A stretch of 52,897 bases of DNA from a bacterium (GCA_037147175.1 JBAWVS010000014.1:1-52897); one strand, 5' to 3'; counted from the stretch's first letter, positions 28,961-51,382 are shown. Numbers and translations: made by a program. The notes: a model not told the origin generated them from the letters alone.

Positions 28961-29401
28961 ATGAGAACAGAATCTATGACAATTAATTTAACTCAAGCAC
29001 AAGACTCAAAGGGATTAGACCCTGAAAAACCAATGTTTCCTATCAGTGTTGTGGCAGACTTATTGAAAGTTCATCAAAGAACATTAAGAATTTATGATGA
29101 CGAAAGGATTTTAATGCCTTCAAGATCTCCTAAAAACAGAAGACTTTATTCTTTTAATGATATTGAAAGAGGAAAGTTTATTCAGTACTTGACCAGAGAA
29201 CTTGGAATTAATCTTGCAGGAATCAAGATTATTGTTCATTTGCTGAAACAACAAAACATTCCTCCGGCTGACTATCTGGTTCACATCAGCAAAGTAGCCA
29301 ATGAATTAAATATTTCTCCTGAAGTTCAGGAAGAAAACAGAATAAAACTTTCCAGAAGAGGACGAAAATCCAAAACTTCTGATGAAGAAAATGAAGAATA
29401 A
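28961..29401 (+). CDS. MerR-family transcriptional regulator, HspR-like
   Basis: A 146-residue DNA-binding protein. The winged helix-turn-helix covers residues ~23-95: PISVVADLLKVHQRTLRIYD, then NRRLYSFNDIERGKFIQYLTRE, then GINLAGIKII. The last phrase is typical of HspR, the heat-shock repressor of dnaK operons, rather than metal-sensing MerR proteins. No metal-binding cysteines are seen. The C-terminus (SRRGRKSKTSDEENEE) is charged and likely disordered. No chaperone genes are nearby. The lone promoter and long upstream region could allow autoregulation, although I did not find the HspR inverted-repeat operator. Confidence 0.85.
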   Translation: MRTESMTINLTQAQDSKGLDPEKPMFPISVVADLLKVHQRTLRIYDDERILMPSRSPKNRRLYSFNDIERGKFIQYLTRELGINLAGIKIIVHLLKQQNIPPADYLVHISKVANELNISPEVQEENRIKLSRRGRKSKTSDEENEE

Positions 29402-29449: not shown

Positions 29450-29479
29450 AAAAAAGTCGTTATTTTCAGCGACTTTTTT
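29450..29479. terminator. bidirectional terminator between the HspR-like gene and comEC
   Basis: AAAAAAGTCG (29450-29459) pairs with CGACTTTTTT (29470-29479) across a 10-base loop. A and T runs on the two sides allow use by both convergent genes. It overlaps the last codons of comEC. Confidence 0.8.
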
Positions 29480-31826
29480 GCGTTTTAAAAGTTTTATAAA
29501 CATAATTTTCGCCATCCGAACTTATTATCACCGCAAAATCCCTGTCTGTCCTGAAAGTTTTAACGTTAAATTCTTTTAATTCTTCTAAAATTTTACCGTT
29601 TGGATGTCCATACATATAACCTTTTTTACCAACTGAAATTACGGCTAATTGAGGTTTTAAATAATCAAGAAAATTATAATTTAAGGAATTATAACTTCCA
29701 TGATGACCTATTTTTATTATATTTACAGGTTTTTTTACATATTTTTCAATATCATAGAGCGAATCAGCTTCGCTATCTGCCATTAAAATTGATGAAAAAT
29801 CTTTATAAAAAATGTATAAAATAATACAGTCTTCGTTTTCATTATTTTTGTATTTTTTATAAGATCTTATAACTTTAATCTTTACATCTTTGTCTAAATT
29901 TATGTTTTCACCGTCGTATAAAATTCTGTTTTTAATATGATTTTTTTGAAAATAATTTTTTATTTTCAGGCATGTTTTTGAATTTTCCCTCAACCCGTTA
30001 TGAAGAATCTCGTTTACTTTAATATTATCAAGTATTTCAAGAGTTCCGCCGACATGATCGCTATTTGGATGGGTTAAGACAACAGCATCAAGCTTTATAA
30101 TTCCTCTATCCCTTAAATAAGGGACAATAGAAGTTTTAGCAGGAATATATTTCCCGTTTGGACCCGTATCAACCAAAATATTTTTATTGTTCGGAGTATG
30201 AACAAGAATAGCATCGCCCTGTCCTACATCAAAAAAAACAAATTCAAGTTTTCTGTCAAAATTATCTTTAAAAACAAAAATTAATAAACTTAAAAATAAA
30301 ATTAAAGACACAACATTTAATTTTTTAGAAGAAAAATTTGCCTTAATTACAAATAATAACGCAATAATAAAGCCGTAAAAAATTATGACTGCAAAAACAT
30401 CAGGTTTTGCAAGGTAATAAAGAGCATGAGGAAGATTGGAAACATATTTTGAAATAAAAAGAATAATATCTATAAAAGGCTCAGATATTTTATCGAAAAT
30501 CAGGCATAAATTTCCTCCTATCACGGGTACAAAGCTAAAAACGCTTCCAGTAAATCCCAAAAAAGTTATAATCCCGACAAAAGGAACAACGAGGATATTT
30601 GCTAATAACGAATAAGTTGAAAAATTATTAAAGTGAAATATTTGAATCGGTGATGCCCAAATTTGCGCAACAAGAGGAACTACAACAACTCCTGATACTG
30701 CTTCGGGAATAGGATTTAATTTTTCTAAAAGAGGCGTAACGCATAACAAAATACCGAAAGTTGTTATAAAAGACAGCTGAAAACTTATATTTGCAAGCAG
30801 CAAAGGGTTAATTAAAAGCATAAGAGCGCATACAAAGACTAAAATAATTAAAGTGTCCGCTTTTCTGTCAAGCAATTTTGCCAGAATAAGAAATTCTGCC
30901 ATAACGGCCGCACGCATTACAGAAGGAGGTAAACCGGTCAAAAGCGAATAGAAAACTACCAGAATTGCACCTGTAATCATCTTGGGTTTGTAAGAAATTC
31001 TTAACTTTGACGCAATAAAAAACCATGCTCCAAAAATAAAACTCACGTTCATTCCTGAAGCTGCAAGCAAGTGCAAAAGACCTGATTTCATAAATTCCTG
31101 TTTTATTTCATCGGGAGCAGGAACCGCAAAATCCCCAAAAACCATTCCTTCAAGCACTTCCAGCTTAGGTGATTTTATATATTTTGAATTTTCAAGAATA
31201 ATTTTGTTTTTTATTTTATTCAAACTCTGTATTAATAACCATTTACCCCCTTTAGGATGCTCAATAATATTGAAATCATTATATTTTACATTTGTAATGG
31301 TAAAAACACCCTGATTTTGTAGATAATTTTTATAATCAAACTGTCCGGGATTTGTCGCCTCAAAAGGAAGTTTTACAAATCCTTTAACTTCTAAAATATC
31401 CCCTATAAGAATCTTTTTGAATTTTTTCTCTTTATCATAAATATTTACAATGGTTTTAGCTTTTATTGGTTTCCAATTATCCTTAAATTTGTATGAATAA
31501 ACTTTAAACTCAAATTTTGTTTTGTTTATTGACTTTGAGCTAGGTTCAGCTATTACCCTGCCCTTTAAATAAACACTTTTAGGAGCCAGCTTACATAATG
31601 AATCGGGTCTTGGAGTTCTTAAACCACAATAAAATACCGAAAAAACAACAATTATAAGACATAATACAGAAAATTTTATTGAAAAGACTTTTTTATAGGC
31701 AAGAATCGAAATTAATAAAACAAAAACTATAACCAGCAAAGGAATTAAATTAAGCAAATATGCTCCAATTCCTGCAATAAAAGCAGAGCAGAGTATCATT
31801 GTTTTTTGCGGTTTTGTTAAAGGCAT
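29466..31826 (-). CDS. comEC: DNA-uptake channel protein ComEC/Rec2
   Basis: A 786-residue polytopic inner-membrane protein that carries single-stranded DNA into the cytoplasm during natural transformation. An N-terminal membrane and OB-like region (~1-200) is followed by the ComEC competence domain (~220-490; GLLHLLAASGMNVSFIFG, LPPSVMRAAVMAEFLILAK). A C-terminal metallo-beta-lactamase domain begins at FVFFDVGQGDAIL and contains THPNSDHVGG and KIGHHGSYNS, proposed to degrade the non-transported strand. All three parts are present, so the protein looks functional. Four pseudopilin genes start 158 bases away on the other side of a shared divergent region. Confidence 0.95.
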   Translation of the reverse strand: MPLTKPQKTMILCSAFIAGIGAYLLNLIPLLVIVFVLLISILAYKKVFSIKFSVLCLIIVVFSVFYCGLRTPRPDSLCKLAPKSVYLKGRVIAEPSSKSINKTKFEFKVYSYKFKDNWKPIKAKTIVNIYDKEKKFKKILIGDILEVKGFVKLPFEATNPGQFDYKNYLQNQGVFTITNVKYNDFNIIEHPKGGKWLLIQSLNKIKNKIILENSKYIKSPKLEVLEGMVFGDFAVPAPDEIKQEFMKSGLLHLLAASGMNVSFIFGAWFFIASKLRISYKPKMITGAILVVFYSLLTGLPPSVMRAAVMAEFLILAKLLDRKADTLIILVFVCALMLLINPLLLANISFQLSFITTFGILLCVTPLLEKLNPIPEAVSGVVVVPLVAQIWASPIQIFHFNNFSTYSLLANILVVPFVGIITFLGFTGSVFSFVPVIGGNLCLIFDKISEPFIDIILFISKYVSNLPHALYYLAKPDVFAVIIFYGFIIALLFVIKANFSSKKLNVVSLILFLSLLIFVFKDNFDRKLEFVFFDVGQGDAILVHTPNNKNILVDTGPNGKYIPAKTSIVPYLRDRGIIKLDAVVLTHPNSDHVGGTLEILDNIKVNEILHNGLRENSKTCLKIKNYFQKNHIKNRILYDGENINLDKDVKIKVIRSYKKYKNNENEDCIILYIFYKDFSSILMADSEADSLYDIEKYVKKPVNIIKIGHHGSYNSLNYNFLDYLKPQLAVISVGKKGYMYGHPNGKILEELKEFNVKTFRTDRDFAVIISSDGENYVYKTFKTQKSR

Positions 31827-31895
31827 TTTTTTTCCTTTATAATATGATTTTTTAATTATAAAACAATAAAATTCAAATTCTAAAAACGTAATAGA

Positions 31896-31924
31896 TTGAG
31901 CAGAGTTTTAATATATGTTAAGAT
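31896..31924 (+). promoter_or_regulatory. candidate promoter for the first pseudopilin gene
   Basis: TTGAGC (31896-31901), a 17-base spacer and TAAGAT (31919-31924), each 4 of 6 to consensus. They lie 60 bases upstream of the ATG at 31985, which has AAGGAG about 8 bases before it. Confidence 0.3.
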
Positions 31925-31984
31925 TATTGTATCTTTCAAAATTGCCGGATTTAATTCTTAAAACTTATAAAAAGGAGTAGATAA

Positions 31985-32647
31985 ATGCGAAAAGGTTTTA
32001 CACTTGCTGAAACCCTTATTACAATGGCTGTAATAGGAATAATTATGGCTTTATCAATTCCTGCCGTTATTCAATCAACAAACGATACAGCGCCCTTGTT
32101 TAAAAAAGCGTATAATACCGTAGAAGAAGTTACAAGTGAACTCATAAATGACACTTCTCTTTATCCGAGCGGGGATCTTAGCAGTGCGGCAAGTGGAACA
32201 GCTAATTGTTCTGCGACAGACTTAACAAATGGAGAATGTTTTTGTAAAAACTTTTTTGCAAAGTTAAACACTGTAGGAACAATAACTTGTACTGCCGCAG
32301 CTGCTGTCACACCTACCGTAACAGTAGGCAGTCCGAATACAACAAATGCTGATGCTTCAACAACAAATGCAATGAATTGGTATAATTTACATTCTGCCGT
32401 AGCAGATAAAGCCGCTTCCGGTTTTAATACAGGAAATTGTAATACCGGTTCTACAGGCATTGATACAAGTACAAACACCTGCGTAAAAATAAGCGTTGAT
32501 GTTAACGGAATGAACAAGGGCTCAAATACAAATACACCTCAGGCTAATCAAGATATTTTTAACATATATGTAACTGCAACAGGAAAAGTTGTTGTGGAAA
32601 CCAGTAATTCATTAACTTATGATGAAGCATATATTCTTCAACATTAA
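31985..32647 (+). CDS. type IV pilin-like (pseudopilin) protein
   Basis: A 220-residue prepilin with a class III leader cleaved before Phe: MRKG/FTLAETLITMAVIG, with Glu5 of the mature protein and a hydrophobic N-terminal helix ending LSIPAV. The middle is Thr/Ala/Asn-rich. The C-terminal part has a Cys pair and ISVDVNGMN...DIFNIYV, a diverged form of the DVNG signature shared with the three genes that follow. It is the only one of the four on the plus strand, divergent from comEC. It probably builds or tips a pilus-like fibre used for DNA uptake or secretion. Confidence 0.87.
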   Translation: MRKGFTLAETLITMAVIGIIMALSIPAVIQSTNDTAPLFKKAYNTVEEVTSELINDTSLYPSGDLSSAASGTANCSATDLTNGECFCKNFFAKLNTVGTITCTAAAAVTPTVTVGSPNTTNADASTTNAMNWYNLHSAVADKAASGFNTGNCNTGSTGIDTSTNTCVKISVDVNGMNKGSNTNTPQANQDIFNIYVTATGKVVVETSNSLTYDEAYILQH

Positions 32648-32655
32648 GAATCAGA

Positions 32656-33399
32656 CTAATACAACATTTTTCCATCCTGAAGTGCTTTTGCGGCACATTC
32701 TAATCCGCCATTATAAGCATTGAGGGGACAATCATTTGCTCCATAATAAGAAACAGCCGTATTTTTTGTCCCAATATCTCCGTTGAAAATAATTTTACTA
32801 TTGATGTCTCTGTTTGTGTTAGTTGGATCAACGACTTTAACTATAAAAAATCGGAAGATATCCACACCAAATCGATTAGGTCTATTAAAACCGTTTACAT
32901 CAACGTCAACTTCAGCGCAGGCTATATTATTCGAACCGGAATCTTTAACAGTACTATCTGTGCATGCGGTGCTTAAAGCCTTAAAAGCTAACATTGAGCC
33001 ATCGTTCAAAACAGCCATTGAATATGTACTCAAATCTAAACCGTTTGCGCTTCCGTCAAATTTATAATAATTAGCCGACCAACAATTTGTATGAGCAGCT
33101 CCGGCATTACATAATTGTGTGATTTTTAAAAATCTTGAATATAAATTTCTTAAATTATCATTTGCATTACCAGTTGTACTCCACGCATTTTCCATTACTC
33201 CCGAGTTATTTGATTTTATTTGCTGCGTGGCAAAATCAAAATCAGTATAAAGCTTCCTTAATGCGTTTACATATTGATTTTTTTGGGAAGTACCGCCTAC
33301 AAAAAAAGTCGGGATGGTTAAAGCTGCCAATATGCCTAATATGGCAAGAGATACAACCATTTCAGCAAGGGTAAAAGCTTTTTTTGACGTTTTATTCAT
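32656..33399 (-). CDS. type IV pilin-like (pseudopilin) protein
   Basis: A 247-residue prepilin starting MNKTSKKA/FTLAEMVVSLAIL. The residue before the cleavage site is Ala rather than Gly. I start it at the ATG at 33399, which has AAGGA about 10 bases upstream. An ATG at 33438 would add an unlikely 13-residue extension. The mature N-terminal helix ends LTIPTF. The globular part shares TQQIKSNNSG with its neighbours and carries DVNGFNRPNRFGVDIFRF near residue 175. It ends 9 bases from the convergent pseudopilin at 31985-32647. It is the last gene of a minus-strand run of three. Confidence 0.87.
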   Translation of the reverse strand: MNKTSKKAFTLAEMVVSLAILGILAALTIPTFFVGGTSQKNQYVNALRKLYTDFDFATQQIKSNNSGVMENAWSTTGNANDNLRNLYSRFLKITQLCNAGAAHTNCWSANYYKFDGSANGLDLSTYSMAVLNDGSMLAFKALSTACTDSTVKDSGSNNIACAEVDVDVNGFNRPNRFGVDIFRFFIVKVVDPTNTNRDINSKIIFNGDIGTKNTAVSYYGANDCPLNAYNGGLECAAKALQDGKMLY

Positions 33400-33457
33400 A
33401 AAATCATTTTCCTTTTTAACGACTTCTGTTTTATGCATGGGAAATTATACTTAATTA

Positions 33458-34177
33458 TTATGTACTATAGTTTATCTCCTGCCTGTTAAGAACTTGGGAG
33501 GCACACCCATAACCATCTTTTAATGTATTCTTAGTATTACAATTGCCGGCTGCATTATAAATAGTATGGGCTTCTCCTCCGGCATAAAGACCGTTTGAAC
33601 CTAACAAAAACATAAAAATATCCTTGCCAATAATATTTGGTCCATTAAAACCGTTAACATCCGCAACTATATAACCGCATAAAATTTTGTCCGTGGCCGC
33701 ATAAGGAAGATTTAAACTCACACCTGTTCCATTACATGAAGTATTTGGTATATAAAAAAGCAAAAAAGTTCCGTCAGCAAGAACTGCTCCCTGATAATTT
33801 GTATTAGCATCAAAACTTTCTACCGATGCTCCAATCGATAATTTGCCGGTAAAATTTGCCCAACAATTTCCTACAACGCTACCAACTGAGCATGTTTTAT
33901 TGTATTCAAGGATATTGCCATATTTATTGTCCCTTGCATCAGTTGAACTCGTAAAAGCACCTATTAAGGTACCTGCATTGTTTGACATAATTTGATTTGT
34001 GGCTGTATCAAGAATCCCGTAAGTTTTTTTAAGCCCGTCGATAAAAGAAGCCTGATTGGTACTTTGAAACAAAGTAGGAATAGTCAAGGCCATTACTGTA
34101 CCCATTATAGCCAATGTTATCAAAACTTCTGCCAGAGTAAAAGCATTACTGTAATAAACTTTTTTTTGTTTTTGCAT
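33458..34177 (-). CDS. type IV pilin-like (pseudopilin) protein
   Basis: A 239-residue prepilin beginning MQKQKKVYYSNA/FTLAEVLITLAIM, with an unusual NA before the cleavage site. The hydrophobic helix ends LTIPTLFQ. The globular region has GLKKTYGILDTATNQIMSNN and the signature DVNGFNGPNIIGKDIFMF, with Cys residues that could form disulfides. It sits between two homologues, 58 bases from the downstream one. It is most similar in layout to the gene at 34246-34920, which suggests tandem duplication. Confidence 0.87.
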   Translation of the reverse strand: MQKQKKVYYSNAFTLAEVLITLAIMGTVMALTIPTLFQSTNQASFIDGLKKTYGILDTATNQIMSNNAGTLIGAFTSSTDARDNKYGNILEYNKTCSVGSVVGNCWANFTGKLSIGASVESFDANTNYQGAVLADGTFLLFYIPNTSCNGTGVSLNLPYAATDKILCGYIVADVNGFNGPNIIGKDIFMFLLGSNGLYAGGEAHTIYNAAGNCNTKNTLKDGYGCASQVLNRQEINYST

Positions 34178-34245
34178 TTTTTATAAATTCCTCATCATAA
34201 AAAAATTCATTGTTTAATACATCTTTAATTTAATATACAAAACAT

Positions 34246-34920
34246 CTAATAGTTCATCGTACCTTCTGTAAGGATTCTTCCTGAACATGCTACTCCATTA
34301 ATTGAATCAATAGATGAAGTATCACAATAAGTACTCCAGGGAGTAAATCCTTTTAAACCATCAGGGAATAGACCTTTACTGGTTATTCTGAAGATAAAAA
34401 CATCTCTTCCAAACCTATTTGGAGGATTAAATCCATTTACATCAACCCAAAAAGATCCGCAAGCGATATTTACTCCATTATCTACGTAGCTATTATCAAC
34501 ACCGCCTGTACAATTAGGATTTGCTAAGGACATCGCAATAAGCATGCCATTAGATAATATAGCTGTCGGAACAATCATTATATCCCAACCCAAATAATTT
34601 CCTTGAAGATTATTTACATTAGGACTAAAAAAACAACCACTTGTTCCGATAGAACATTTTTTTACACAATTTAATCTTGTACAATATTTATCTAATAATT
34701 CACTTGAATTACCTGCGATTTTAAGCATCGTTCCGCTGTTATCAGTCATTATTTGGCTGGTAGCCGTTTTAAGTATTAAATATGCTTTTTTTAAACCGTT
34801 AACATAATTGTGTTCATTCGTTGTATTTATAAGATTAGGTATTGTAGCCGCAATTATTATTCCTAAAACAGCTAAGGTAATAAGGGTTTCTGAAAGTGTA
34901 AAACCTTTTTTTCTTTCCAT
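34246..34920 (-). CDS. type IV pilin-like (pseudopilin) protein
   Basis: A 224-residue prepilin starting MERKKG/FTLSETLITLAVLG, with a canonical Gly before the cleavage site. I start at 34920, with AAGAG 6 bases upstream; an ATG at 34980 would add 20 residues that spoil the leader. The globular part has GLKKAYLILKTATSQIM and the signature DVNGFNPPNRFGRDVFIF. Multiple Cys residues (RLNCVKKCSIGTSGCFF) suggest disulfides in the exported form. It is first in the minus-strand run of three pseudopilin genes. Confidence 0.87.
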   Translation of the reverse strand: MERKKGFTLSETLITLAVLGIIIAATIPNLINTTNEHNYVNGLKKAYLILKTATSQIMTDNSGTMLKIAGNSSELLDKYCTRLNCVKKCSIGTSGCFFSPNVNNLQGNYLGWDIMIVPTAILSNGMLIAMSLANPNCTGGVDNSYVDNGVNIACGSFWVDVNGFNPPNRFGRDVFIFRITSKGLFPDGLKGFTPWSTYCDTSSIDSINGVACSGRILTEGTMNY

Positions 34921-35075: not shown

Positions 35076-36380
35076 TTATCTTCCGAGGTTTACAATAGTA
35101 TCCATTATCTGGTTTTGAACGGAAAAAGCTCGGCTGTTTGCCTCAACAGCTTTTTGTGCAAGAATCATATTTGCAAATTCTGTCGGCAAATCCACGTTTG
35201 AGGTTTCAAGAGATCCTGAATCAATAGAACCAAGCCCTCCTGATCTGCCTATTGCAAAACTGGGATTTCCTGCTGCGGAATTGATTGAAAAAAGGTTTCC
35301 TCCGATTGCTTCAAGTCCTTTAGGGTTAACTACTTGGGCAAGCTGAAGTTGTAATTGTGCCGGATCAATAAAATTCCCTGCTGACTGAGTAACATTATTT
35401 CCCGAAACTTCTTTACTTCCTGATGAAACATATTTTAAAGTTCTTGACGGCTCACCTGTAACGCTAAGCTTTGCTCCGTTTGAATAAGAAACCTCTATTG
35501 CTCCGTCATTAAGTATAGAATAAGAAGACACTGTATAAGTATTAGGCAGTGCGGAACCTGCTGCGCTGGCTTCACCTATATCTACTTTCGGAGTATCAGA
35601 TAATGTTGCGCTGGTATACGTAGGAGAAGAACCGGTAAAATTTGCAACCGTTGCAAAGTTACTTGTGTCGGCTGCATTGCCAAATGTTACTGTATCAGAT
35701 CCTGATATCACTATTTTATTTGAACTTAAAGTCGCTGTACTTGATGTAAGTTTCGAATTAATTTTATTTACTATATCCTGCATTGTATCAGTTTTAAGAA
35801 CATCAACCTGTTTTGCTGTTCCATTAACAGTAACAGTAAATTGCAGAGGGGATGCAGTTGTTCCACCTGTTACAGCCGTGGTTCCATCGGAAATTACGTT
35901 TGTTTCATTGAGAACTAAAGAAGTAGGTATATTAATAGTTGTATCACTTCCTGTTGAACTTGTTGTACTGGCAGTGCCTGCAACTTTATAACCAACAGCG
36001 TTAACCAAATTTCCTCCGGAATCTACAGAGAAATTTCCGGCTCTTGTAAGCAACATTTTGCCTGAAGGATCTACAACAGTAAAGAACCCTTCACCCTGAA
36101 TATTTAAATCAGCGGATTTTCCGGTGGATTGAATAGCTCCTCTTGTAAAATTTCGACTTATTTCAGCTATCGTGACACCCAATCCGACTTGTTTCGGATT
36201 AACTCCTCCGCTTGTAGTCGTTGGGGTTCCTCCTGCAGAAATAGTATTTGAAAAAATACTTGCAAAATTCATTTTACTTGATTTAAAAGCTGTTGTGTTA
36301 ATGTTTGCAAGGTTATCCCCGATTACATCTAACATCGACTGGTTGTTTGTGATACCCGAAATTGTTGTAAATAATGACAT
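35076..36380 (-). CDS. flgE: flagellar hook protein FlgE
   Basis: This protein forms the curved hook that joins the flagellar rod to the filament. The N-terminus MSLFTTISGITNNQSMLDVIGDNLAN and the C-terminus LPTEFANMILAQKAVEANSRAFSVQNQIMDTIV are the paired coiled-coil ends typical of axial proteins. RNFTRGAIQSTGKSADLNIQGEGFF is the conserved FlgE/FlgG box. The length of 434 residues is ordinary, and the Thr/Ser-rich middle (~130-300) is the variable surface domain. It is the last gene of fliJ-fliK-flgD-flgE and is followed by a terminator. Confidence 0.96.
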   Translation of the reverse strand: MSLFTTISGITNNQSMLDVIGDNLANINTTAFKSSKMNFASIFSNTISAGGTPTTTSGGVNPKQVGLGVTIAEISRNFTRGAIQSTGKSADLNIQGEGFFTVVDPSGKMLLTRAGNFSVDSGGNLVNAVGYKVAGTASTTSSTGSDTTINIPTSLVLNETNVISDGTTAVTGGTTASPLQFTVTVNGTAKQVDVLKTDTMQDIVNKINSKLTSSTATLSSNKIVISGSDTVTFGNAADTSNFATVANFTGSSPTYTSATLSDTPKVDIGEASAAGSALPNTYTVSSYSILNDGAIEVSYSNGAKLSVTGEPSRTLKYVSSGSKEVSGNNVTQSAGNFIDPAQLQLQLAQVVNPKGLEAIGGNLFSINSAAGNPSFAIGRSGGLGSIDSGSLETSNVDLPTEFANMILAQKAVEANSRAFSVQNQIMDTIVNLGR

Positions 36381-36442
36381 TAAAGCCTCCCCTTTTATAT
36401 ATTATTTTCCAGAATTTTATTATTTTTTATCGCATTATATAT

Positions 36443-36916
36443 TTAACCGCTGCTGGCTCCGCTGCTTGTAGAACTTGTGCTTGCTTCTTTAACACTCAAA
36501 ATATTATTTAGCGGGTATTCGTTTCCGTTTACCACAACACTTGCCCCGCTTGAATTAATTTTAGCTTCGCTTACCGTTCCCGAAATTGTCTTTTTAGTAT
36601 CATTCGGATCAGTTAAACTTACGTCTTTTCCGATAAGAGTACTTGCCTGCATCATTTGATTGGATGACGTCACCGACTTGTTAAGCTTTTGAAGCTCACT
36701 GATTTGGGTAAATTGAGCTTGTTGAGACATAAACTGATTACTGTCTGTAGGATTTAAAGGATCCTGATTTTTCAACTGAGCCATTAACAACTGCAAAAAT
36801 GCATCCTGTCCCATGTCAGAACTTCCTGCGGTTTTGGCATTTTTTTGAGCCTGCACTGCGGCCGTATTATTTTGTAAAGTTGTTAAAGAATTGGTTATGT
36901 CTATTGCTGATGTCAT
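36443..36916 (-). CDS. flgD: flagellar hook-assembly (capping) protein FlgD
   Basis: FlgD forms the temporary cap under which FlgE subunits assemble. The hallmark N-terminal part is present: DMGQDAFLQLLMAQLKNQDP, then SNQFMSQQAQFTQISELQ. The protein is 157 residues, shorter than the ~220 of enterobacterial FlgD, with the C-terminal Tudor/Fn3 region reduced to a short segment ending in Ser-rich sequence. Short FlgD forms occur in several phyla. It lies between fliK and flgE. Confidence 0.95.
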   Translation of the reverse strand: MTSAIDITNSLTTLQNNTAAVQAQKNAKTAGSSDMGQDAFLQLLMAQLKNQDPLNPTDSNQFMSQQAQFTQISELQKLNKSVTSSNQMMQASTLIGKDVSLTDPNDTKKTISGTVSEAKINSSGASVVVNGNEYPLNNILSVKEASTSSTSSGASSG

Positions 36917-36942
36917 AAAACCCCCTGCCTCCGTTATATTTA

Positions 36943-38574
36943 TTATATTTTGTAATCAACTGTTCCTGAGTGGAAAACTTTATTTTCTCCGACTGAGTCA
37001 CCTGTTTCATTTTCTGATTCTTCATTAAACTCATATGATGCATTATTTAAATACGCTGAAGAACTTTCTCCTGAATGCTTTTGCTTATCAGATTGATAAT
37101 TCATGTTTGATGTATTTGAATTTGCCTGTTCAAAGTTCTTTTGATTCTCCTCAGAATTCATATTTTGATTAGATGAAGAAGACTCCTGAACATTAACAAC
37201 CATTTTGCCAACATTAATTCCCTGTTCTGCCATATTTTGCCTCAAGGTTTCAAGACCTTTGGTTAAAATATCTTTAACCTGAGTATTTTCTGCGGTAATT
37301 TGAGCTGTTAAGACCCCGTTCTGCGAAACAAGATTAATATTTACCTTGCCAAGATTATCAGGTCTTAACACAATCGAAACTTGAGACTTATTTGTTGATA
37401 TATCTGACGAAATTTTATCCTTAAGCTGGTTAAGAACAGAATTTTCAGGGGTTTGTGTTTGTTTTGTGTTTAAAATTTTATCAAATTGAGAAGTTTTTTG
37501 AAGATCGATTTTTTGCAAATTATTTTCATCTGAAGATATAACCTGAACCTGACTAATATTTGATTTTAATTCCTGCTGGTTTTGTTTTTGGTTTTGACCG
37601 TCAGAATCCTGTTTTGAAGAGTTGGTTTGAACCTGAATATTTGTTATAACAGGTTTTGCGTCTTCATTATTAATAGTATCAGCCAATTTTTCAGAAACAG
37701 GTTTTAAATTTTCGGAATGAGGCTGTTTAATTTGAGTTTTATCTATGGCATTAAGCTTATTTAAAACATCTTCTGAAGCCAAAATCTCCGGTTTTTTAGA
37801 TTGATCTTGTTTTACAGTTTGATCGATGATTTTTGTATCTGTTTTTTTAAGTTCTTCAAGATTTATTTTATTTATTTGCTGCTGATCTTTGGAAGTTTCT
37901 TCTTCAACGTCTGTAGATTTTTGTTGTAAGACATTTTCTGCCTGTTTATTCGTTATTTTTTCGTTTGCAATTTGTTTTTGAAGTGTGGTTAATTCTTCAG
38001 GCAAAGTTTTTTCTAAATTAGCAGTCTTAAGTTCCGCTGTATTGTTTTTCGGCAACGAAACATTAGCTTCATCAGTATTTTGCAATGCCGTTTGAATCTG
38101 TTCTTGTTGATTTAAATTAATATTTTCGGCAACTGTCTCAGTATTATTATTTTCCTGCTGATTTAAACTTGTTGTTTCTTCTTTAACTTCAGAAACAGCA
38201 TCCTTTTGGTTTTCTTTGGTTTCAGAAACAGTATCTTTAGCTTCGATATCTGCATCTTTTTTCTCTTCTTTAAGTTTAAAGAAGACTTCTTTCTTTATTG
38301 AATTATCAATATTTTTGTTATCGGCAAGTTTATTGTGAAAATTTTCATAATCAGACTTAAACCCCTTTAAATTTAAGTTTTTACTATATTGATTTAAGTT
38401 TTTTTGTGAAAACTTTTCTGTTTTATCAAAGGAAAAGTTAAAACTTTTATTAGTCGATTCAAAAATATTTAAAAAACCGTTGCTATTGTCTTTTGAATAA
38501 TTTTTTTGCGTATATTCATTATTTTTAGTATTTGAATCAAATTTAACAGTATCAATTAAATTCTCAATAGCCAT
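36943..38574 (-). CDS. fliK: flagellar hook-length control protein FliK
   Basis: A 543-residue secreted ruler that measures the hook and switches export from hook to filament subunits. The first ~400 residues are low-complexity and Gln/Asn/Lys/Glu-rich, as expected of a flexible ruler. The conserved C-terminal domain (~385-470) reads SIVLRPDNLGKVNINLVSQN and then LETLRQNMAEQGINVGKM, the FliK core. A further ~70 polar residues follow. It sits between fliJ and flgD, the classic order. The match is clear only in the C-terminal domain. Confidence 0.92.
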   Translation of the reverse strand: MAIENLIDTVKFDSNTKNNEYTQKNYSKDNSNGFLNIFESTNKSFNFSFDKTEKFSQKNLNQYSKNLNLKGFKSDYENFHNKLADNKNIDNSIKKEVFFKLKEEKKDADIEAKDTVSETKENQKDAVSEVKEETTSLNQQENNNTETVAENINLNQQEQIQTALQNTDEANVSLPKNNTAELKTANLEKTLPEELTTLQKQIANEKITNKQAENVLQQKSTDVEEETSKDQQQINKINLEELKKTDTKIIDQTVKQDQSKKPEILASEDVLNKLNAIDKTQIKQPHSENLKPVSEKLADTINNEDAKPVITNIQVQTNSSKQDSDGQNQKQNQQELKSNISQVQVISSDENNLQKIDLQKTSQFDKILNTKQTQTPENSVLNQLKDKISSDISTNKSQVSIVLRPDNLGKVNINLVSQNGVLTAQITAENTQVKDILTKGLETLRQNMAEQGINVGKMVVNVQESSSSNQNMNSEENQKNFEQANSNTSNMNYQSDKQKHSGESSSAYLNNASYEFNEESENETGDSVGENKVFHSGTVDYKI

Positions 38575-38640
38575 TTATAACCCTCTATAAAATAAATCCC
38601 CGAATTTTGTTGTCCTATCCCCGACCTGGCTGAATAATTT

Positions 38641-39087
38641 TTACCCCTGCTTTGCATATCTGCCTGTTGCAATTTCATCGATTAATAACATTTCATGCCT
38701 GTTTATGTTTTCTTTAAATTCGTCTAGTGCTTTCTCCTTTAGCTTTTCCATAACTTTTTTTGCTTTTAGTGCTTCTAACATAAGCTGATTTTTTTCTTCG
38801 AGTTCTTTTTCTGCCTGTTCTATGATTGTTTTTTGCTTTTTTATATTTTCTTTAAGTGTAAATATATAATTTTGATGAATTAAGATGATTGTATTATCTA
38901 TATTCCCTGCTTTTAAAACTTCCTCTAAACTTAAATTTGTTTCATCAAGGGCTTTAACAATATTTGCCATCACAAGATTTTCGCAGTGAAGTTTGTTTTG
39001 AGCTTTTGCAAACCCGAGCTGACAATCCTCAAGTTTTTTTTGCCGTGCATCAAGAACACTCTGCAATCTAAATTTAAAACCTTTCAC
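38641..39087 (-). CDS. fliJ: flagellar export chaperone/ATPase stalk protein FliJ
   Basis: A 148-residue coiled-coil protein. FliJ sits in the centre of the FliI hexamer and helps couple ATP hydrolysis to export. The start FKFRLQSVLDARQKKLEDCQ is characteristic, and the rest is helical and Lys/Glu-rich. The start codon is GTG, with GAGG 7 bases upstream. fliI, its usual upstream neighbour, is absent; the 437 bases before it hold repeats instead. The unit fliJ-fliK-flgD-flgE therefore appears to start here. Confidence 0.9.
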   Translation of the reverse strand: MKGFKFRLQSVLDARQKKLEDCQLGFAKAQNKLHCENLVMANIVKALDETNLSLEEVLKAGNIDNTIILIHQNYIFTLKENIKKQKTIIEQAEKELEEKNQLMLEALKAKKVMEKLKEKALDEFKENINRHEMLLIDEIATGRYAKQG

Positions 39088-50569: not shown

Positions 50570-51382
50570 TTATTCCTTGTTTAAATCCTTTTGAATTCTT
50601 ATTTTGTTAAAATATTCCTGCATATTTGAAGAAACATTTATATTTTGCAGTGATAAATTGTATTTATTAAACTCCGCAAGCGTATCTTGCTCGTAATGCA
50701 ATACTTTTTCCTGTTGAGGCGCAGGCAATTTTTGTTGAAGAAAATTTTCATTTTTCTTTTGATTCGGATTCTCAAGAAAATGTATTAAGTGATCAAGCGT
50801 ATAAGCAGAAGAAAACTTATAACGAAGAAGAATATCTTTTTGAGCTGAACCCACAGGAAAATTATAAAGCCATTTTAAGGTAATAATATCTCTTTTTGAA
50901 ACAGAAGTTACACCGTATTGATGGGGGACATACATTATGTCTTCGGGATAAGGACTGTGATTAAGCCCTAAAGCATGACCTATCTCGTGAATAATAGTAT
51001 GTCTGACCTCGTTTTTGTCTTCATACTGCTTATGAATAAGACCATCCGAAAGACCAATTTGAATTTCTGCTGAAAATAGCCTTCCTTCAGGATCAAAATT
51101 AAACAAACAATGCCCTAATGATGACCTGTCTACACGTTTCCATTCTATGTTTATTTGCGAATTATATAGATTATCAACAAATTCAAAAGATATTTTCTCG
51201 TTGGAAGCTTTTTTCCAAATTTCAAAAGCTTCTTTTATCATTGCATAATAGAAATATTCCTGTCCTTTTTCTTTATACCAACGAAAAGGCGCAACATAAA
51301 CCTTGAGAGGCATACATTTGTCGGGCCACCTCAGCAATTTATCGTCCTTAAGGCAATTTGTCAGATAAGATGCAAAACTCAT
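50570..51382 (-). CDS. matrixin-like zinc metalloprotease (M10 type), no signal peptide
   Basis: A 270-residue metzincin. The zinc site is HEIGHALGLNH (H132, E133, H136, H142), followed by the Met-turn in EDIMYVP (M150). Upstream, RWPDKCMPLKVYV and IKEAFEIWKKASNEKISFEF match the start of matrixin catalytic domains. No propeptide cysteine switch and no signal peptide can be seen, unlike most secreted matrixins. The C-terminal ~85 residues are polar and unassigned. The start has no good ribosome site, so the N-terminus is tentative. It is divergent from ybaB. Confidence 0.85.
   Translation of the reverse strand: MSFASYLTNCLKDDKLLRWPDKCMPLKVYVAPFRWYKEKGQEYFYYAMIKEAFEIWKKASNEKISFEFVDNLYNSQINIEWKRVDRSSLGHCLFNFDPEGRLFSAEIQIGLSDGLIHKQYEDKNEVRHTIIHEIGHALGLNHSPYPEDIMYVPHQYGVTSVSKRDIITLKWLYNFPVGSAQKDILLRYKFSSAYTLDHLIHFLENPNQKKNENFLQQKLPAPQQEKVLHYEQDTLAEFNKYNLSLQNINVSSNMQEYFNKIRIQKDLNKE

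Follow-up and report, generated by a model that had tools for sequence, protein, structure and literature searches.

The question raised by a 52,897-nucleotide stretch of bacterial DNA (GCA_037147175.1 JBAWVS010000014.1:1-52897; hereafter the window, with positions counted from its first letter) is whether comEC and four adjoining prepilin genes, here named p1 to p4, belong together in function or only happen to lie side by side. Our answer, to which we assign a probability of about 75%, is that the four genes belong to a family of type IV pilin-like proteins of the Gastranaerophilales, that comEC is an incidental neighbor, and that relatives of the window's genome have expanded this family and probably switch many of its members through homopolymer tracts. 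The Gastranaerophilales live in animal guts; they are Cyanobacteriota that do not photosynthesize, and most remain uncultured.

The gene for ComEC (29466-31826, minus strand) matched TIGR00361 with 255 bits (cut-off 190) and PF03772 above cut-off, and is present as a single copy in the window's own genome. Divergent from it lies p1 (31985-32647, plus strand), which is opposite in strand to p2 (32656-33438), p3 (33458-34177), and p4 (34246-34920), all on the minus strand; each of the four matched PF07963 above cut-off, and alignment also places p2 and p3 in the family. The start of p4 was taken as the ATG at 34920, and an alternative TTG start would give a longer frame reaching 34980. The preliminary description of this DNA, made from the window alone, had placed comEC beside four prepilin genes sharing an Asp/Asn-rich block, and both observations were borne out. 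The block DVNGFN-x-PN-x2-G-x-D-[IV]-F is present on the minus strand in p2 (DVNGFNRPNRFGVD, 32860-32901) and p3 (DVNGFNGPNIIGKD, 33620-33661), in both of which it takes the form kept across 76 family members, and in p4 (DVNGFNPPNRFGRD, 34402-34443), where it falls between strands of the structural model described below; p1, which has two orthologues in the sister genome G008 (48-55% identity), carries a diverged, stretched version, DVNGMNKGSNTNTPQANQDIF. The GLKK/ALRK and TATxQIM-like segments are likewise present (FATQQIK in p2). No Pfam family other than PF07963 (N_methyl) scored above cut-off in p1 to p4, soluble parts included. The window's own genome holds 13 recognized prepilins, six of which belong to this pilin family, and a promoter and terminator scan of the window returned hits at about chance level.

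The preliminary description proposed that the pilins form the tip of a DNA-uptake pilus working with ComEC and that the adjacency reflects this role. The divergent arrangement of the neighboring genes in the window and the presence of ComEC and pilus motors in the same genome fit such a role, and conservation of the adjacency had been set beforehand as its test. Flanks of comEC, up to 1.5 kb on each side and shorter at contig ends, were compared in 31 other genomes of the order, and a family pilin was found in 0/31. In relatives, the pilins are scattered and lie away from comEC: the two are on different contigs in nine other genomes of the window's taxonomic family, and in the gut genome G022 a distance of 14 kb separates comEC from the closest family member. 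In G008, an orthologous cluster of five pilins sits between fliJ-fliK-flgD-flgE and a peptidase gene; comEC occupies a separate site, and the 4 kb upstream of it hold other genes. Moreover, comEC is single-copy, whereas the pilins number from one to at least 150 per genome. The N-terminal helix of the family does give weak matches to ComGC and ComGE, but all of them fall below the curated cut-off and cover the N-terminal part only, and the genes are not in a comG operon. With neither a conserved link to competence genes nor a ComG model above cut-off, a DNA-uptake role is very unlikely, and comEC is best regarded as an incidental neighbor because the adjacency is absent from the order-wide comparison.

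The other neighbors of the pilins change with lineage as well. Beyond p4 in window coordinates are flgE, flgD, fliK, and fliJ (35076-39087, minus strand; assigned by Pfam and by synteny in G008 and G009), and flgE adjoins the pilin cluster in all three genomes of the window's genus, including G009, where contig ends hide the position of the cluster relative to comEC. In the other seven genomes of the taxonomic family, the flgE contigs lacked family pilins among the matches listed. A flagellar linkage was thus rejected, since the flgE neighborhood holds at the level of the genus and not in other genera of the family. Elsewhere, the pilins adjoin genes resembling dnaE, asnS, and aroK/aroC (names from sequence inspection). 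Taken across these settings, the family pilins look like independent genes that would act in trans. On the other side of comEC, a MerR-type regulator (28961-29401, plus strand; Pfam) is a conserved neighbor of comEC in the window's genus (G009) and in one other genus (G001).

To delimit the family, a profile was built from 27 members. Each of 40 sampled genomes of the order gave a match, and a scan of 291 genomes across the phylum yielded 134 with a match at E 1e-12, all but one within the order; the single match outside it was marginal (6.7e-13), and another family of the same class, represented by five listed genomes, gave no profile match. A scan of genome contigs with a narrow alignment returned two loci, both from Candidatus Gastranaerophilales, and it is after these two named matches that the order is called Gastranaerophilales here. 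Within the phylum sample of 291 genomes, the family is thus essentially confined to this order. The prepilin cleavage/methylation motif is nearly universal (PF07963 matched 74 of 76 homologues) and precedes a long N-terminal helix in the model. By this motif, with Glu+5, and the hydrophobic helix, the proteins are placed in the type IV pilin superfamily (class III prepilins). One existing family, DUF6613 (PF20318), matches four of the 76 members, one of them above cut-off when checked; it covers only a subgroup, none of p1 to p4, and is a DUF of unassigned function. A published description of the family was not found in the open-licence literature, although a termite-gut genome paper reports pilA, pilB, pilC, pilT, and pilD (PMC5877343). 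Carriage by phages or plasmids was also considered and rejected: p4 had no tblastn match in phages or plasmids, and in viral contigs there was neither a match to a related pilin nor a contig with the tract pattern described below.

Apart from the prepilin helix, what the 76 members chiefly have in common is the loop D-x-N-G-x4-N-x2-G-x-D, and its conservation exceeds a chance resemblance. D160, N162, G163, and D173 are invariant in 27 homologues, besides the prepilin motif; in the set of 76, where mean column identity is 20%, these four positions together with N168, G171, G125, and the prepilin helix are conserved at 90% or above, and consideration of the soluble domain alone adds a conserved proline, two cysteines, and one glycine. 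AlphaFold2, supplied with 66 members, modeled the soluble part of p4 with a predicted local distance difference test score (pLDDT) of 92.7 and a predicted template modeling score (pTM) of 0.89. In this model, a check that the preliminary description had itself proposed, the loop joins two strands, as a metal-binding hairpin would. Genome distribution and alignment together uphold the earlier suggestion that these pilins are specific to a lineage and share a conserved Asp/Asn loop. In a Foldseek search with the model of the soluble part, no PDB entry scored below E 1 and no viral model below 0.17.

The natural reading of the loop is a metal site, probably for calcium, by analogy with PulG (PMC6692295), in which case the bound metal would steady the soluble domain. 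The analogy raises the further possibility that the proteins serve a type II-like secretion machine as pseudopilins and are not surface pilins, since the family shares with GspG/PulG a prepilin N-terminus and a loop, and GspG/PulG bind calcium, which they need for folding, through a loop near the C-terminus (PMC6692295). The window's own genome encodes pilB-pilT-pilC, a second set of GspE/GspF type that sits with a secretin closest to GspD, and Tad, all on contigs other than those of the pilins; the second set is in keeping with this possibility. The likeness to GspG, however, ends at the helix. TIGR01710, whose cut-off is 88.85, gave 20-22 bits, on the helix only, with no significant GspG-type match past it; no solved pseudopilin matched the fold; the proteins are longer, with a loop metal that is presumed; and relatives carry dozens to more than 100 diverged members per genome, far beyond a pseudopilus set. 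A pseudopilin function is unlikely. From the machinery genes in the genome, we infer prepilin processing and filament assembly, in which the prepilins would be incorporated as minor pilins or pseudopilins by the type IV pilus machinery or by a machine resembling type II secretion.

Copy number sets the gut relatives apart. Genomes of the window's taxonomic family gave 1-12 matches each, versus up to 150 or more in the gut family. G028 gave 107, and the counts for G020, G102, and G039 were at least 131-150. In G022, one gut genome covered to 98.5% (the genomes compared are drafts), there are 74 family frames, 69 with a recognizable prepilin motif, against ∼1,620 predicted open reading frames (ORFs). 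The G022 paralogues share 67% identity over the first 28 mature residues, which form the helix, and 22% over the rest. Variable pilins in a host-associated bacterium recall the pilE/pilS system of Neisseria, but Neisseria recombines similar cassettes, whereas the paralogues here are only 22% identical outside the helix and bear no sign of conversion. Identical residues shared a codon at a frequency of 0.39 in the helix versus 0.51 elsewhere; codon sharing is lower in the helix, and recent gene conversion is therefore not indicated. On these two comparisons, gene conversion and silent cassettes are not supported in G022.

A k-mer comparison of upstream regions on contig C1 of G022 revealed G runs before 16 of 28 pilins versus 0 of 596 other ORFs. 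The 1.739 Mb of G022 covered contain 51 G or C runs of seven or more, all 9-11 long, and 46 of them lie within 450 bases upstream of the prepilin motif of a family pilin, so that 46 of the 74 members bear a tract. Ahead of the tract there is, in 46/46, a start codon that has a ribosome-binding site, and the stretch from tract to motif is free of stops in the frame of the motif in 46/46, compared with none and one in the other two frames and with a mean of 6.1 (maximum 12) among composition-shuffled stretches; the 46 genes are not independent observations because they form 20 sequence clusters. Start codons upstream and a frame free of stops place the tract within coding sequence. An alternative in which the G10 tract served as a promoter element, based on a TATAAT eight bases before an internal ATG, was dropped on the same ground, and TATAATAGTGAT is therefore taken as codons for YNSD. 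Many tract-bearing G022 leaders (e.g., C1:442273) also contain a near-perfect inverted repeat, TAATAGTGAT-ATGAAAC-ATCACTATTA, around an internal ATG, coding for NSDMKHHY. A joining length of 2 mod 3 closes the frame in 43 of the 46; as assembled, 42 are out of frame and end after 14-29 codons, and four are in frame. As read from the sequence, tract length sets the reading frame in 46/46 G022 genes, which is the architecture of translational phase variation. The preliminary description missed the growth of the family in relatives, and their poly-G/C tracts, because these lie outside the window.

That the assembly shows most genes with a tract out of frame, and at least one member with further stops (C1:408272), might suggest that such members are decaying pseudogenes. 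This is extremely unlikely, given that the leader after the tract is free of stops in all 46, that a median of 225 codons stays open beyond the motif, and that one member has orthologues in different species with 77-83% identity. Tract lengths also differ between related copies, with G10 and G11 both found within G022 and G10 and G9 in G003, a member of the window's own taxonomic family in which two tandem, near-identical leaders are in frame at G10 and out of frame at G9. Tract-bearing leaders occur in other species of the genus of G022 and, with lengths of 11-12, in another genus of the gut family.

Several observations nevertheless weigh against switching at the DNA level. Tract lengths in G022 are nearly uniform (42/46 are exactly 10), where free switching might spread them more; some tracts near pilins in other genomes lie outside the reading frame (L126, L129); and p1 to p4 carry no tract, as the window has no G or C run of seven or more anywhere. 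A systematic one-base miscall of homopolymers, or transcriptional or ribosomal slippage that yields an in-frame product from all members with no switch in the DNA, would look similar, and both the deficit of the same single base at nearly all G022 tracts and the same offset in other genomes of that genus are in keeping with it. This explanation is unlikely, though worth entertaining: the same assembly has G11 called at four loci, coding leaders in other genomes have tracts 9, 11, and 12 bases long, and the tandem leaders of G003 differ by one G. Uniformity is also explicable in biological terms. In Campylobacter jejuni, mutation bias keeps most tracts at G9/G10 (PMC8355987), and a bias of this type would account for both the uniform lengths and the mostly-off state. 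The C. jejuni poly-G/C genes (PMC8355987) provide the closest parallel for the tracts themselves, with intragenic runs of ∼9-11 bases at several dozen loci per genome and truncation of the product at out-of-frame lengths, but those genes serve mostly flagella, capsule, and lipooligosaccharide, whereas the G022 tracts are nearly all in prepilin genes, in another phylum, and their switching is predicted from sequence.

Under translational phase variation, slipped-strand mispairing would change tract length and bring a tract-bearing pilin in or out of frame. A one-base gain in a G10 tract would put the pilin in frame, and mutation bias would tend to reverse it, so that most tract-bearing members would be off at any time and the surface subunits that the cell displays, probably adhesins, would keep changing. 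The four members in the window, having no tract, are presumably not switched in this way. We lean, by no great measure, toward the fuller proposal that gut Gastranaerophilales maintain a very large, mostly-off, phase-variable pilin repertoire (∼47 switchable prepilins in 1.74 Mb, from one genome), with few pilins shown per cell and with an undescribed, probably metal-stabilized domain. Adhesion by these surface subunits is something we infer, with support from YadA-head repeats in a further tract-bearing G022 prepilin. The gene in question (G022:C1:211833-213752; L149:11833-13752) encodes 639 amino acids, with an in-frame G10 leader tract, YadA-head repeats, and Peptidase_S74, and its product appears to be a pilin-anchored, adhesin-like protein.

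Tract-bearing genes in G022 are not limited to prepilins. A putative acyltransferase (Acyl_transf_3; G022:C3:51853-52977, L246:11856-12974) is interrupted within the coding region by a run of ten C bases (C10), and the modification of surface polysaccharide by this gene may likewise be phase-variable. In the window's own genome, two tandem prepilins with the loop variant DVNGDKGPN lie beside an asnS-like gene (G000:C24:9459-10871, L079), and three consecutive, very large prepilin-like genes encode 722, 1042, and 546 amino acids (G000:C11:2751-9715, L081). Apart from the pilins, the window encodes a matrixin-like (Peptidase_M10) zinc protease with HEIGHALGLNHS (50570-51382, minus strand), which is unusual-looking in this setting.

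To our knowledge, little is known of how Gastranaerophilales meet host and microbial surfaces. The pilin family described here adds a conserved pilin soluble domain without a PDB match and makes up several percent of a 1.8-Mb genome (74 frames among ∼1,620 predicted ORFs in G022). Phase variation of its members predicts mixed tract lengths at single loci in existing metagenome reads and, if true, would offer strong evidence that phase variation at many loci extends beyond the pathogens in which it is well studied.

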